This document shows, one piece after another, positions 1 through 4,624 of a DNA stretch of 64,000 bases. The notes under the pieces are model-generated. The model was not told the origin of the DNA. It saw only the letters and a list, made by a program, of their open reading frames with translations, and did no database searches. The number at the start of each line of letters is the position of its first letter. Within the stretch, counting starts at the first letter, position 1. Source of the stretch: a gamma proteobacterium symbiont of Ctena orbiculata (GTDB lineage: Bacteria > Pseudomonadota > Gammaproteobacteria > Chromatiales > Chromatiaceae); assembly GCA_003058495.1 (NCBI GenBank), contig QBVC01000034.1:1-64000 (forward strand), given 5' to 3'. The translations under genes were made by a program, and so were the position numbers.

Positions 1-67
1 ATTGATCGAGGTAGTTGATAGCAACCATGCTGTTTTGGTTGTAGTCGTAAGGAATGAATTTAGGCAT
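1..67 (-). CDS. N-terminus of a possible IS1182-like transposase (partial, runs off window)
   Basis: Reverse complement of 1-67 reads ATG CCT AAA TTC ATT CCT TAC ... = MPKFIPYDYNQNSMVAINYLDQ, resembling the N-terminus of IS1182-type transposases; truncated by window edge. Confidence 0.5.
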   Translation of the reverse strand, partial: MPKFIPYDYNQNSMVAINYLDQ

Positions 68-134
68 TAAATAACTCCCTTTCCTTTGTCTCTATTCTAT
101 CATTCCTTAGGTGAAAATAGGGGTTTTTCTACAG

Positions 135-201
135 CCTCAACGTTGCCTTCAGCGGGACTGGCGCGTTAGCGACTGTGTCCGCTGTAAGGCCTGGTTAAGT
201 G
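135..201 (-). other. attC site (cassette 5 / cassette 6 junction)
   Basis: cctcAACG...GTTAAGtg core sites with internal imperfect palindrome; GTTAAGTG (194-201) is the exact complement of CACTTAAC (617-624) at the other end of cassette 5. Confidence 0.8.
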
Positions 202-210
202 ATATTATTT

Positions 211-381
211 TCATATAAATATAACTACCGCTATTAATACTAAAGGAAAGATCCACCAATAGCGTTTTGCATATCCTGTTTGTTGGCTTTTTTGTTCTTC
301 TTCCCTTCCCAAGTAATACGACTTTATAATTAGCAGTACAAGCAATATCCCAACAATTAAAGACAAGATTAATGTTTCCAT
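211..381 (-). CDS. small membrane protein, second ORF of cassette 5
   Basis: METLILSLIVGILLVLLIIKSYYLG...YWWIFPLVLIAVVIFI, two hydrophobic segments; ATG overlaps the upstream ORF stop (TAATG). Confidence 0.6.
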   Translation of the reverse strand: METLILSLIVGILLVLLIIKSYYLGREEEQKSQQTGYAKRYWWIFPLVLIAVVIFI

Positions 382-611
382 TATCTGGACTTCCACCATT
401 GCTTAAGAAAGGAAACAAGACCAAGTCCAACAATAAAAGCTAATAAAGACAATATTTGCCATATTTGGAAAGAATTAGCCCCTGACTTTCCCAGTGTAGT
501 AACGACTTCTGGTGATCCGCTCAACATCTCAGTAAGACCAAAAATGCTGCAATAGAAGCAAGCTATAGCTCCAAGTGCTATGAATACTGAAAGTACTATC
601 TTCTGCACCAT
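381..611 (-). CDS. small membrane protein, first ORF of cassette 5
   Basis: MVQKIVLSVFIALGAIACFYCSIFGLTEML...; start chosen just inside the cassette boundary (attC 617-677). Confidence 0.6.
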   Translation of the reverse strand: MVQKIVLSVFIALGAIACFYCSIFGLTEMLSGSPEVVTTLGKSGANSFQIWQILSLLAFIVGLGLVSFLKQWWKSR

Positions 612-616
612 TTTCA

Positions 617-677
617 CACTTAACGTTCTAATCAGTCGCGCCGCTTTTTGGCGTCGACTGGATTTGGTTGTTAGGCT
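617..677 (-). other. attC site (cassette 4 / cassette 5 junction)
   Basis: CACTTAACGttc...gcgccgctttttggcgtc...GTTAGGCT; overlaps the 3' end of the cassette 4 ORF. Confidence 0.85.
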
Positions 678-1194
678 TTTCAGCAGTGTTAAACTTGCTG
701 GCAACTTCTTCGTACAGTTGTGATTGACCGACAGATACTCCCAGAACGAATGCTGCTAATAGGAAGCCGACAGTCTTAGCCCATAATGAAAATGGTGCAT
801 GTGTATATAGCCAAGAAAGCGTAATCTTTTGAGGCCACTCAAGCTGTTTCTTTTCTTCTGATGTGCTTTTGGCGGCTTTTGGGTCACCATATTTGTCATA
901 CTTATTTACTATTGTTTCCAATTCAACAATTGTGTCTTGAAGGTCTCGATTAAAGGCGTCTATATGGTCTTTTTGTGATGGGTCATATGTATATGAACCT
1001 TGTTGATAAAATAGCCTGTTTTGTATTGAGCAATTAATCTCATAGCCATTATCTTCAATGCGTTGAATTAGATCTGTAAGGTTGTGCCGCCATTTTCTAA
1101 AAGCTGGATCTTCATCGACTTTTTTGAGATCAAAAAGATTATTTGCCTCCTGTAAATAATCTCTTACTTCTGCTGCAAAGTCTTCGTATTTCAT
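628..1194 (-). CDS. integron cassette 4 protein: soluble N-terminal region with C-terminal transmembrane segment
   Basis: 188 aa ORF fills the cassette; C-terminal tail NNQIQSTPKSGATD is encoded within the attC. Confidence 0.65.
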   Translation of the reverse strand: MKYEDFAAEVRDYLQEANNLFDLKKVDEDPAFRKWRHNLTDLIQRIEDNGYEINCSIQNRLFYQQGSYTYDPSQKDHIDAFNRDLQDTIVELETIVNKYDKYGDPKAAKSTSEEKKQLEWPQKITLSWLYTHAPFSLWAKTVGFLLAAFVLGVSVGQSQLYEEVASKFNTAEKPNNQIQSTPKSGATD

Positions 1195-1213
1195 ATGACA
1201 TTATTTCCTTACA

Positions 1214-1282
1214 AGCCTAACGTTGCCTTCAGCGGAGCAGGCGCGAATGCGACTGCGTCCGATGGAAGGCCTGGTTAGGGCT
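1214..1282 (-). other. attC site (cassette 3 / cassette 4 junction)
   Basis: AGCCTAACgttgccttcagcgg...ggcctgGTTAGGGC; sequence closely related to the attC at 135-201. Confidence 0.85.
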
Positions 1283-1287
1283 GCGAA

Positions 1288-1725
1288 TTAATTAAATGTT
1301 TGCCAACTTGTAACCTTACCATTTACCGTATAAACGTATTGATTCTTTCTGTATACATGCTGAATATGCACAATATTTCCTGTTACTGATTTATTTTCTT
1401 TCAATGGCTTACCCCAGCTTACATATAAAGCACACTGACTCATACCAGCAGCAACTTTATGCTCAGCTATTAATTCTTGGTCTTGTTTGGATAGTAACCC
1501 TCTTCTGTTTACTTCTTTAAACCAAAGAGATTGATTATGTTTTACTATTTCTTTGTCTTTTTCAGATAAATATTCATTTCTAATTCTGTTTCCACCAGCC
1601 GCTTTACAAGCATATTCATCGTTGAATCTTGCTCCCCAAGTTTCGGCATCTGCTTCAGTTAATCTAGGTATCTCAGCACACCCCGATATAAAAACAACAA
1701 GAAAAACAAAAAGTCTGTAGTTCAT
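1288..1725 (-). CDS. integron cassette 3: putative lipoprotein
   Basis: MNYRLFVFLVVFISGCAEIPR..., signal peptide with lipobox-like ISGC; ORF fills the cassette. Confidence 0.65.
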   Translation of the reverse strand: MNYRLFVFLVVFISGCAEIPRLTEADAETWGARFNDEYACKAAGGNRIRNEYLSEKDKEIVKHNQSLWFKEVNRRGLLSKQDQELIAEHKVAAGMSQCALYVSWGKPLKENKSVTGNIVHIQHVYRKNQYVYTVNGKVTSWQTFN

Positions 1726-1747
1726 TGCACCTTTCCTCTACTTTTTT

Positions 1748-1797
1748 GCCCTAACGCCGCATTCAGCGGCTTGTCCGCTGAAATGACTGGTTAGTTG
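1748..1797 (-). other. short attC site (cassette 2 / cassette 3 junction)
   Basis: GCCCTAACgccgcattcagcggcttgtccgctgaaatgactgGTTAGTTgc. Confidence 0.8.
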
Positions 1798-1800
1798 CGT

Positions 1801-2208
1801 TTACGTTAAACGAGGCCATTTTTTATTTATACCCAATGTTACAATCACAATAACCAGACATACCAAACCATATGGAACCATAAACTCTAAAACAGCACCT
1901 CCCAAATACTGCATAAATTCTGGATTGCTAGATTGAACAAAGACAACCCAGAAAGCACCTACAGATAATAGAATTGCTACAACTAATTTTAGATTTGCTT
2001 TCACGACATAACTTACTAAGCATGTAATAACTGCTGTAACTAACCCAGAGTAATAGTATTGATATTGCAATGTTTGGATGTAACTTTCATCTATTGCTAC
2101 TACAGCACCCATACTACTCAGTGGACCCGTACTGAAAGCGACAACAAGACCGATGAATGCTGAAATAATAACGGCCGTGTATTTGAGTATTGTCATTCTT
2201 GTATGCAA
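1801..2208 (-). CDS. integron cassette 2: multi-pass membrane protein
   Basis: 135 aa ORF with about four hydrophobic stretches between attC sites. Confidence 0.6.
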   Translation of the reverse strand: MHTRMTILKYTAVIISAFIGLVVAFSTGPLSSMGAVVAIDESYIQTLQYQYYYSGLVTAVITCLVSYVVKANLKLVVAILLSVGAFWVVFVQSSNPEFMQYLGGAVLEFMVPYGLVCLVIVIVTLGINKKWPRLT

Positions 2209-2294
2209 CTAACGTTTCAGTAACCGGCAGCCGCAGCGCAGCGTAGGCTGTCCGAGCGAACGACAGTGAGCGGGGTTTACTGGCTTGTTAGGCG
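2207..2294 (-). other. attC site (cassette 1 / cassette 2 junction)
   Basis: gcAACTAACGtttcagtaaccggcagccgcagcgcagc...tttactggcttGTTAGGCG. Confidence 0.85.
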
Positions 2295-2299
2295 ATCTG

Positions 2300-2704
2300 C
2301 TACCCAGCACTGCGATCACCACCATTCCTTGATCGACCAGAAACATTTAATTCGGCATGTGGTTTTTTGCGCGAATACTTGCCAGTGCACCTATAAGAAC
2401 TGAGATGCGCATTTTCTGGCTGGTTGCGGATATTGGACCAATATTCTTTTTGAACATTTTTATCAATTTTAACTATTCCTGGATATAAGGTGTCATTTCC
2501 ATCTTTTCGAGGCTTTGATATCCAGTATTCGATACCTGAATTAAGTTCGAAGTAATTCGATTTGTAGCCAACTCCCTTTAGTGACTGAAACTCCAAGCCT
2601 CGGTAATAAAGTGTTTTTCCGGTCTTTGATAATTGAACACGGCAAATCCTGCCATCACCAGTCAAGCCTGCCTTGTCTTCGATATACATGATTTCGGTTC
2701 TCAT
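2300..2704 (-). CDS. integron cassette 1: conserved cassette-associated hypothetical protein
   Basis: MYIEDKAGLTGDGRICRVQLSKTGKTLYYRGLEFQSLKGVGYKSNYFELNSGIEYWISKPRKDG..., resembles a small protein family common in integron cassettes. Confidence 0.7.
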   Translation of the reverse strand: MRTEIMYIEDKAGLTGDGRICRVQLSKTGKTLYYRGLEFQSLKGVGYKSNYFELNSGIEYWISKPRKDGNDTLYPGIVKIDKNVQKEYWSNIRNQPENAHLSSYRCTGKYSRKKPHAELNVSGRSRNGGDRSAG

Positions 2705-2710
2705 TATTTA

Positions 2711-2800
2711 CGCCTAACATTACATTAGACAGAATCTTTACTATTACCAATAGTACGGACGCGGCCTATTGTGCTATTGGAAGATTCGGCATAGCATAAT
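2711..2800. other. attI-like recombination region
   Basis: CGCCTAAC (2711-2718), exact complement of GTTAGGCG (2287-2294), at the attI/cassette 1 junction between intI and the first cassette; right edge approximate. Confidence 0.6.
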
Positions 2801-2857
2801 GACTGAAATTGACTGTTTTCGGGCAGGATGCCCAAGCTAGTAACAAGGAGAGTTTTT

Positions 2858-4261
2858 ATGAAAGATGCTTCTGCCATCGTCCATGACCCCACTGCCCGTT
2901 TTTTTGATAACTACCTGAAATGTCTCATTAGCGCTTCCATACCTGAGAAGCAACGCCGCTGGTATGTTAAACGCCTAGAGGATTTCATTAAGGCGCAAAA
3001 TGGCCACAAAATCAAGGCGCTTTCAGTCCTGAATATCCATAACTACTTGGAAATGATAGGCCGCCAAAAACAGCTCTCAGGCTGGCAATTCCACCAATGC
3101 ATCGATGCTATACGGATTCTCTACTGCGATCTGTTGCAGACACCACAGTGTCAGGAAGTCGATTGGCACTATTGGTTTGATTCCGCAAAACAGCTTGAGA
3201 TAGATCATCCAACGACCGCACGTCAGCTCACACCCGAGCAATTATCCTACATCAAAGAACGCAAGGGTGACGGCCCTCTCAATCAGGTGCGAAAGGACCA
3301 CCACTCATTACTGGTTCGTTTTACCCAAGAGATTCGACGGCGAGGCTATGCCTACCGTACAGAACAAATTTATGAACAATGGGTCGGACGTTTCATTCTG
3401 TTTTGCAAGAATCAACCTCCATCTGAAGTGGGGGCTCGCGAGGTAAAACGCTTCCTCGATCACTTGGCCATCCGGCGTCGGGTCAGTGCAAGCACGCAAA
3501 ATCAGGCGCTCAATGCCTTGGTTTTTCTTTATAAACAGGTACTTGAACGCGAACTGGGTGAGTTGGAAGCCTTTACGCGAGCCAAACGGCCGCAAAATCT
3601 GCCTGTCGTTCTCAGTCGTAGTGAAGCAACCGCCCTACTCAACCAACTGACGGGTATTCACAAATTGGTTGTCTCTCTACTCTATGGAACAGGTATGCGT
3701 CTGCTCGAGGGGCTAAGGCTCCGGGTGCAGGATCTCGATTTCGCCTACGGGCGCATCCATATCCATCAGGCCAAAGGCAAGAAGGATCGGTACGTTCCGC
3801 TGCCTAAGACATTGGTTGCCGAGCTGCAACATCAAATCCGTGAGGTCGAGCGGTTGCATACTGAAGATTTGGCTACTGGTCACGGAGAAGTCGTCTTGCC
3901 CGGTGCATTGGCCCGTAAATACCCAAATGCGGGCAGAGAGCTCAAGTGGCAGTTCCTCTTTCCTTCCGGTCGTCTCTCCGTCGATCCCTATGGCGGGGAA
4001 ATTCGCCGCCATCACTTGCATGAAACTGCGATCCAGAAGGCGGTGAAGCGGGCGGCGGCTGCCGCTCAGATCAATAAACGGGTGGGGTGTCATACCCTGC
4101 GGCATAGCTTTGCCACCCATCTGTTGGAGGCCAATTACGACATCCGTACCGTGCAGGCCTTGCTGGGCCATGCCAATGTGTCGACCACGATGATCTACAC
4201 GCATGTGCTCAATCAGCCCGGTGTCGGCGTTCTCAGTCCCCTGGATCAACCCGTTTCATAG
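2858..4261 (+). CDS. intI: integron integrase (IntI family tyrosine recombinase) with N-terminal extension
   Basis: LLYGTGMRLLEGLRLRVQDLDF, IntI-type insertion KYPNAGRELKWQFLFPS...RRHHLHETAIQKAVKRA, catalytic HTLRHSFATHLLE and LLGHANVSTTMIYTHV; RBS AAGGAGAG before ATG 2858. Confidence 0.92.
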   Translation: MKDASAIVHDPTARFFDNYLKCLISASIPEKQRRWYVKRLEDFIKAQNGHKIKALSVLNIHNYLEMIGRQKQLSGWQFHQCIDAIRILYCDLLQTPQCQEVDWHYWFDSAKQLEIDHPTTARQLTPEQLSYIKERKGDGPLNQVRKDHHSLLVRFTQEIRRRGYAYRTEQIYEQWVGRFILFCKNQPPSEVGAREVKRFLDHLAIRRRVSASTQNQALNALVFLYKQVLERELGELEAFTRAKRPQNLPVVLSRSEATALLNQLTGIHKLVVSLLYGTGMRLLEGLRLRVQDLDFAYGRIHIHQAKGKKDRYVPLPKTLVAELQHQIREVERLHTEDLATGHGEVVLPGALARKYPNAGRELKWQFLFPSGRLSVDPYGGEIRRHHLHETAIQKAVKRAAAAAQINKRVGCHTLRHSFATHLLEANYDIRTVQALLGHANVSTTMIYTHVLNQPGVGVLSPLDQPVS

Positions 4262-4272
4262 AAATTTAAACC

Positions 4273-4476
4273 ATGAAGCACCATGCGATGGAAACATCCC
4301 ACGTTTGCCTTATCCTATCGGGGAATATCGGTAACCCGGATGCCGCACAGCGCATGGATGCGGGCGAGGCCGAGCTGTCACGGCTGATCGAGGCGGCCGA
4401 TTCGGTGTGTGATCAACGTGGTCAAAAACTCGAGCTGGTGGTTTTTGATAAAGAAGTCGGGAATGGCAAGCCATAG
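4273..4476 (+). CDS. small hypothetical protein
   Basis: 67 aa ORF immediately downstream of intI; no family recognised. Confidence 0.3.
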   Translation: MKHHAMETSHVCLILSGNIGNPDAAQRMDAGEAELSRLIEAADSVCDQRGQKLELVVFDKEVGNGKP

Positions 4477-4483
4477 ATCTGAA

Positions 4484-4559
4484 TGGTGGCCAGGGACAGA
4501 ATCGAACTGCCGACACGGGGATTTTCAGTCCCCTGCTCTACCGACTGAGCTACCTGGCC
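4484..4559 (-). tRNA. tRNA-Phe (GAA)
   Basis: GGCCAGGTAGCTCAGTCGGTAGAGCAGGGGACTGAAAATCCCCGTGTCGGCAGTTCGATTCTGTCCCTGGCCACCA on minus strand. Confidence 0.97.
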
Positions 4560-4624
4560 TTTGAGAGGAGGGCGTATTAAACCGGGGTTACCAGATGGAG
4601 TCAAGTCTGCGCCCCCGTTGGAGC

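Follow-up and report, generated by a model that had tools for sequence, protein, structure and literature searches.

The window, a stretch of 64,000 nucleotides, carries near its start an integron: an integron integrase gene (intI) that adjoins an attI site and an array of attC cassettes, in the divergent layout of gene, attI and cassettes familiar from known integrons (Table 1). The source genome is close to Candidatus Thiodiazotropha, a group of symbionts of lucinid clams, and a protein 99% identical to the intI product is found on a Ctena orbiculata symbiont contig.

Table 1. Features of the integron in the window
Feature	Position	Strand	Basis or remark
attC, cassette 5	132..199	-	array leaves the contig at position 1
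attC, cassette 4 (ORF 628-1194, -)	616..677	-	
attC, cassette 3 (ORF 1288-1725, -)	1212..1283	-	
attC, cassette 2 (ORF 1801-2208, -)	1748..1797	-	
attC, cassette 1 (ORF 2300-2704, -)	2204..2296	-	
attI R box, GCCTAAC as read on +	2712..2718	+	homology with sister loci L039 and L040 stops here
attI L box TAGACAGAATC	2726..2736	+	7 nt from R box
Palindrome ACTATTACCAATAGT, attI/intI spacer	2740..2754		kept in L039 and L040
Inverted L-type site (..GGCCTA)	2765..2768	-	ends 43 bp from L box start
Shine-Dalgarno AAGGAG	2845..2850	+	7 nt 5' of the ATG at 2858; sequence
intI, long form, 467 aa	2858..4261	+	ORF; R281, K306, H412, R415, H438, Y447 all present
Extra core-binding (SAM-like) domain CB1, residues ~11-108	2888..3181	+	AF2 model, Foldseek, hhalign, dN/dS
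Linker CB1-CB2, probably flexible	3182..3307	+	low model confidence, residues ~111-140, pLDDT ~60
Canonical core-binding domain CB2 (PF13495)	3308..3562	+	E=1.7e-34, whole protein
Tyrosine recombinase catalytic domain (PF00589) and IntI-specific insertion region	3626..4210	+	Pfam, PDB alignment

Read from the ATG at 2858 to the stop ending at 4261, intI encodes 467 aa. Another in-frame ATG, at 2828, would give a protein of 477 aa; it is without a properly spaced Shine-Dalgarno sequence, whereas the start at 2858 has a good one. That the product is an IntI is clear from several features. It scores 459.6 bits with TIGR02249 against a curated cut-off of 265 (residues 162-474 of the 477-aa form), the best PDB sequence match of its C-terminal 310 residues is IntI4 (2a3v), the alignment to 2a3v runs through the IntI-specific insertion of the catalytic domain without a large gap, and all catalytic residues of the class (R, K, H, R, H/W, Y) are kept. 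The protein thus has the core-binding domain (CB2), catalytic domain, catalytic residues and IntI-specific region of VchIntIA/IntI4 and IntI1, and it is 49-50% identical to 2a3v in structural alignment. Unlike IntI4 and IntI1, it adds a core-binding domain of ~110 residues and a linker at the N-terminus.

The cassette ORFs are on the minus strand and point away from intI; none of the five tested (window 1-2704, minus strand) had a Pfam match at E <= 0.01. Each of the five attC sites folds into a hairpin, and in four of them the bottom strand is the more stable one; their lengths are ordinary (50-93 nt), no difference being evident in these five sites. The attC sites of cassettes 5 and 3 (compared over 130-197 and 1210-1277) are 81% identical.

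The N-terminal extension

Does the extension contain a domain of its own? Against Pfam, the extension of the window protein matches PF13495 (Phage_int_SAM_4) only below threshold (E=3.8e-4), so the fold assignment rests on homologues, profiles and a model; a PDB sequence search with the residues before ~150 alone gave nothing useful. Among 13 aligned homologous extensions, 12 match PF13495, the best at 1.4e-7. A profile of the extensions aligned by hhalign with a profile of the canonical core-binding domain of the same proteins over 81 columns (E=1.7e-6, probability 90), and short IntI of the ordinary kind are also matched by the CB1 profile in their core-binding domain, at E-values down to 4.7e-8. 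The AlphaFold2 model of the extension alone has a mean pLDDT of 78.8, mostly 80-94 in the core, and four main helices. When this model was compared with 350,542 PDB chains using Foldseek, the first match was the core-binding domain of IntI4 (2a3v; rmsd 2.4 over 84 columns, probability 1.00, with an E-value that is weak although the best, 0.055), followed by XerA and Cre, and the 27 best matches were all tyrosine recombinases. In the full-length model CB1 and CB2 are joined by a low-confidence segment. Profiles, homologues and model thus agree in placing two consecutive SAM-like core-binding domains ahead of the catalytic domain, and residues ~1-108 are a genuine second core-binding domain.

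In close pairs (those with saturated dS were left out) dN/dS was 0.08-0.32 in the extension, compared with 0.05-0.14 in CB2 and 0.03-0.12 in the catalytic domain; to judge from these ratios, CB1 is under purifying selection. Its mean net charge is +3.1, versus +1.7 for CB2.

The sequence-only reading had described an integrase of about 468 aa with an extra N-terminal part, and had tentatively taken that part for a second SAM-like core-binding domain forming tandem clamps. The first statement is confirmed (467 aa, TIGR02249) and the second is supported by the Foldseek ranking and the hhalign result (E=1.7e-6). Structure prediction of the N-terminal region, which it had proposed as a check, gave the IntI4 core-binding domain as the first PDB match, and the lack of a core-binding fold, which it had named as fatal to the idea, is not what the modelled region displays.

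Lambda Int and Tn916 Int also have an added N-terminal domain, and their accessory sites beside the core provide a working analogy. Arm-binding domains of this type, however, have a fold other than that of core-binding domains, and the added domain here best matches the core-binding domains of IntI4, XerA and Cre. In RitA ('recombinase in trio') Smyshlyaev et al. 2021 (PMC8138268) described two sequential core-binding domains, an arrangement that they reported no other tyrosine recombinase to have. IntI and RitA are of different tyrosine recombinase subgroups, and the intI of the window is flanked by cassettes, a tRNA-Phe gene and a MutY-like gene, with no adjacent recombinase seen. Long-form IntI, which like RitA has two sequential core-binding domains, contradicts the published claim that tandem core-binding domains occur only in RitA (PMC8138268).

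Long-form integrases and their attI sites

Among 99 genomes sampled from the order the extension profile matches in 61, and among 369 of the class in 63, across dozens of families, although the true number of long-form genomes in the latter sample is below 63 since the weakest class matches (about 1e-4 to 1e-3) are mostly the core-binding domain of ordinary-length IntI and were not counted as extensions. Because it recurs across the order and the class, the extension is neither a chance occurrence nor an assembly artefact; the long-form branch of IntI is widespread and little noticed. The source genome itself has a second intact long IntI of 460 aa (contig C2), whose attI has strong repeats at 25-26 bp, and a truncated one of 299 aa (contig C9). 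An intI fragment also stands at the start of contig C19. Among plasmids, the extension used alone as the query gave a single long form, carried by pTs485 of Candidatus Thiodictyon syntrophicum; the full-length protein matched at least 5000 records.

In a tree of the CB2 and catalytic regions, from which the extension was left out and seven long-branched or outgroup rows were removed, 51 long and 58 ordinary IntI fall on opposite sides of one branch (SH-aLRT 100), IntI1 grouping with the short forms. The phylogeny of long forms that the sequence-only reading had suggested thus separates them by a single branch. When XerC and XerD were used for rooting, the root fell among the long forms, on very long branches; such a root is unreliable, and the tree therefore gives no direction, gain or loss, for the extension. 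A partial precedent comes from Nemergut et al. 2008 (PMC2426708), who described Deltaproteobacterial IntI ('clade 15') lengthened by ~120 aa in one fusion event common to the clade and raised the question whether these proteins are functional. Their passages on the clade neither identify the added domain nor examine attI; clade 15 is comparable to the long form in the described length and fusion.

Three further integrases are long by open frame, with an extra stretch that lacks a core-binding domain as judged by Pfam (L108 and L115) or by eye (L153); L115, which the first tree put among the long forms on a very long branch, was omitted from later trees. Another class of the phylum has IntI with a different N-terminal extension (L114 and L116 to L119). 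In L116 the N-terminal part matches PF13495 at 6.2e-8; in the others it is SAM-like by eye. L116 and its kin fall inside the short side of the first tree, and the tandem core-binding domains of this group probably arose independently of the long-form lineage. The 25-26 bp repeat described below was not found in the attI sites of this small sample.

The attI sites of long-form loci differ systematically from those of short-form loci, in a 7-nt spacer and in a second integrase-box-like site at 25-26 bp. With the strict motif YAAC-N-TAGRC (spacers of 3 to 11 nt scanned), the spacer is 7 nt in all 17 matching long loci, whereas of the short loci 12 have 6 nt and one each has 7, 10 and 11 nt (6 versus 7 nt, Fisher p 1.5e-7; this and the other Fisher p-values treat as independent loci that are kin). 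When nothing was anchored, the best lag between repeats in the region 5' of intI was 24-27 bp in 20/31 long but 6/31 short representatives of below 70% identity (3 expected; p 0.0007), and in 13/24 long ones when the Sedimenticola clade is removed (p 0.01). Anchoring on the L box, which could be done in 37 of 49 long loci, locates a second L-type site at +25/26 in 21/37 long loci (1.5 expected from shuffles) and 0/22 short, and an inverted site ending 42-44 bp from the L box in 15/37 long (1.1 expected) and 1/22 short. Ten of the 37 anchored long loci have neither.

Since the +25/26 feature was defined after the first loci had been viewed, it was fixed and then tested on new loci, 18 long and 21 short, of which 10 and 7, respectively, could be anchored. 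The direct site recurred in 8/10 long loci (0.39 expected) and 0/7 short and the inverted site in 4/10 long (0.29 expected) and 0/7 short; the spacer was 7 nt in 10/10 strict long-form matches. Several of the new long loci are closely related to loci of the first set; of the six anchored ones below 80% identity to that set, four have the direct site. The letters of the repeat vary by sublineage (TAGACAGAATC or TTATGCCGCCGGC) while the spacing is constant, which argues for a constraint on spacing. Long and short attI cannot be told apart by inverted repeats alone (z > 2 in 39% and 40%), and the claim is accordingly limited to repeats in fixed register.

Accessory repeats as such are not unique to long forms. 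The attI1 site of class 1 integrons resembles the long-form sites in having a 7-nt core spacer and accessory direct repeats beside the core; unlike them, its repeats are 19 bp apart and its cognate IntI1 is a short form. In a short-form Kovacikia locus the L-box motif is repeated about 49 bp on. It is the 7-nt spacer together with a further site at 25-26 bp that distinguishes the long-form attI from known IntI systems, and these differences are new here: in the open-access literature, where absence is no proof, we found neither the added IntI domain nor its attI described before.

The attI of the window (2712-2768 as a whole) has the 7-nt spacer, the L box, the palindrome and the inverted site at 43 bp, whereas a clear direct repeat is lacking and only a weak one is present. 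Homology between the window and its two sister loci breaks at the R box because different cassettes follow, as would be expected of an insertion site in use. In L040 a 43-bp near-perfect palindrome adjoins the crossover; L041 has a palindrome there too, with changed letters.

Role of the added domain

We favor the reading, at a probability of roughly 0.55, that CB1 works at attI as the accessory DNA clamp of a tandem-clamp integrase. It draws on what was computed (the domain, its predicted fold and conservation, the single-branch split and the matching attI architecture), from which we infer that CB1 binds DNA at attI and affects recombination. The order of the protein is CB1, low-confidence linker, CB2 and catalytic domain, and in the window it serves an array in which five or more cassettes are inserted at attI. 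Recombination of attI x attC and of attC x attC would proceed as usual through CB2 and the catalytic domain, and CB1 might grip a further integrase-type site, 25-26 bp (one spacing) past the L box, or might extend the footprint of a protomer so that neighboring protomers sit 25-26 bp apart. Either arrangement would stabilize the attI complex and favor insertion at attI, the part played by DR1/DR2 for IntI1 and by arm sites for phage integrases. DR1 and DR2 of attI1 favor attI1 x attC recombination and are absent from the V. cholerae attI (PMC8946536); an effect on insertion at attI is thus what would be expected of an extra clamp. Since a single evolutionary event separates long from short forms, the association of CB1 with the attI architecture amounts to a correlation over effectively one event. 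The sequence-only reading had also suggested that recognition of attI and attC, or synapsis, could be altered. Its attI part gains indirect support from the systematic differences of long-form attI sites; its attC part does not, no difference being evident in this array.

Is the extension needed at all? Translation from an internal start would yield an IntI of normal length, and the extension might equally be a decaying fusion; there is an in-frame GTG at 3287, and many related loci are broken copies. Yet the start at 2858 has a good Shine-Dalgarno sequence, dN/dS of the extension is 0.08-0.32 in close pairs and the extension is intact in dozens of families, so that we regard dispensability as very improbable. 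An internal start, the other finding that the sequence-only reading had held fatal, is disfavored on the same grounds of Shine-Dalgarno sequence and purifying selection. The strongest of the alternatives, although still unlikely, has the extra attI repeats bound by whole additional protomers through CB2 and the catalytic domain, with CB1 making protein-protein contacts in a tetramer or higher complex. It would account for the accessory direct repeats of attI1, whose IntI1 is without CB1, and for the resemblance of the distal repeats to the L box (TAGRC). It leaves unexplained why the 25-26 bp spacing is limited to long forms in our sample (0/22 and 0/7 in short loci), and CB1 retains a core-binding fold and a basic net charge, which fits contacts between proteins less well.

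There is less to be said for a role of CB1 mainly in widening or shifting the recognition of attC hairpins, or in attC x attC synapsis, the attI differences being lineage history. With a single deep split between long and short forms, such differences could indeed be inherited without a functional tie to CB1; the attC sites of the window array are ordinary, however, and the attI repeats kept their spacing while their letters diverged, and we consider this role improbable. We are slightly more doubtful still of a reading in which these conserved repeats, lying between attI and intI, serve as a transcriptional operator of intI or of the cassette promoter and have nothing to do with recombination. 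They do sit in the intergenic region between intI and the cassettes, where integron promoters are expected. Against an operator, they stand at a set distance from the L box, in register with the attI core, and have the L-box motif in common; short-form integrons, which need promoters too, are without this register.

IntI may, as we tentatively propose, comprise two deep lineages, one of which has tandem clamps, evolved together with a two-site attI and is a class in which insertion would be controlled in the manner of arm sites by an extra core-binding domain, with no arm-binding domain involved; a similar tandem may have arisen independently, as in L116. The extra clamp and the matching attI repeat together suggest that these enzymes dock differently on DNA. 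Current mechanistic models of integrons were built mainly on short forms such as IntI1 and VchIntIA; with a lineage in dozens of families of Gammaproteobacteria that has a second clamp and a different attI, they miss a sizeable share of chromosomal integrons. The long forms are also a testable natural experiment on the role of accessory attI sites.

Surroundings of the integron

Directly 3' of intI is a small ORF of 67 aa (4273-4476) with no Pfam match; a 69-aa hypothetical protein is annotated at the matching place beside the long intI of pTs485. A tRNA-Phe gene follows at 4484-4559, ~220 bp downstream of intI, with a gene that is MutY-like by eye beyond it. DNA like that of the window at ~4480-4584 occurs in L040, L028, L031/L049 and L032, in several cases just 3' of a long intI, and the loci that share this similarity include members of a different long-form sublineage. 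The side of tRNA-Phe may, on these sequence similarities, be a conserved location for the integron.
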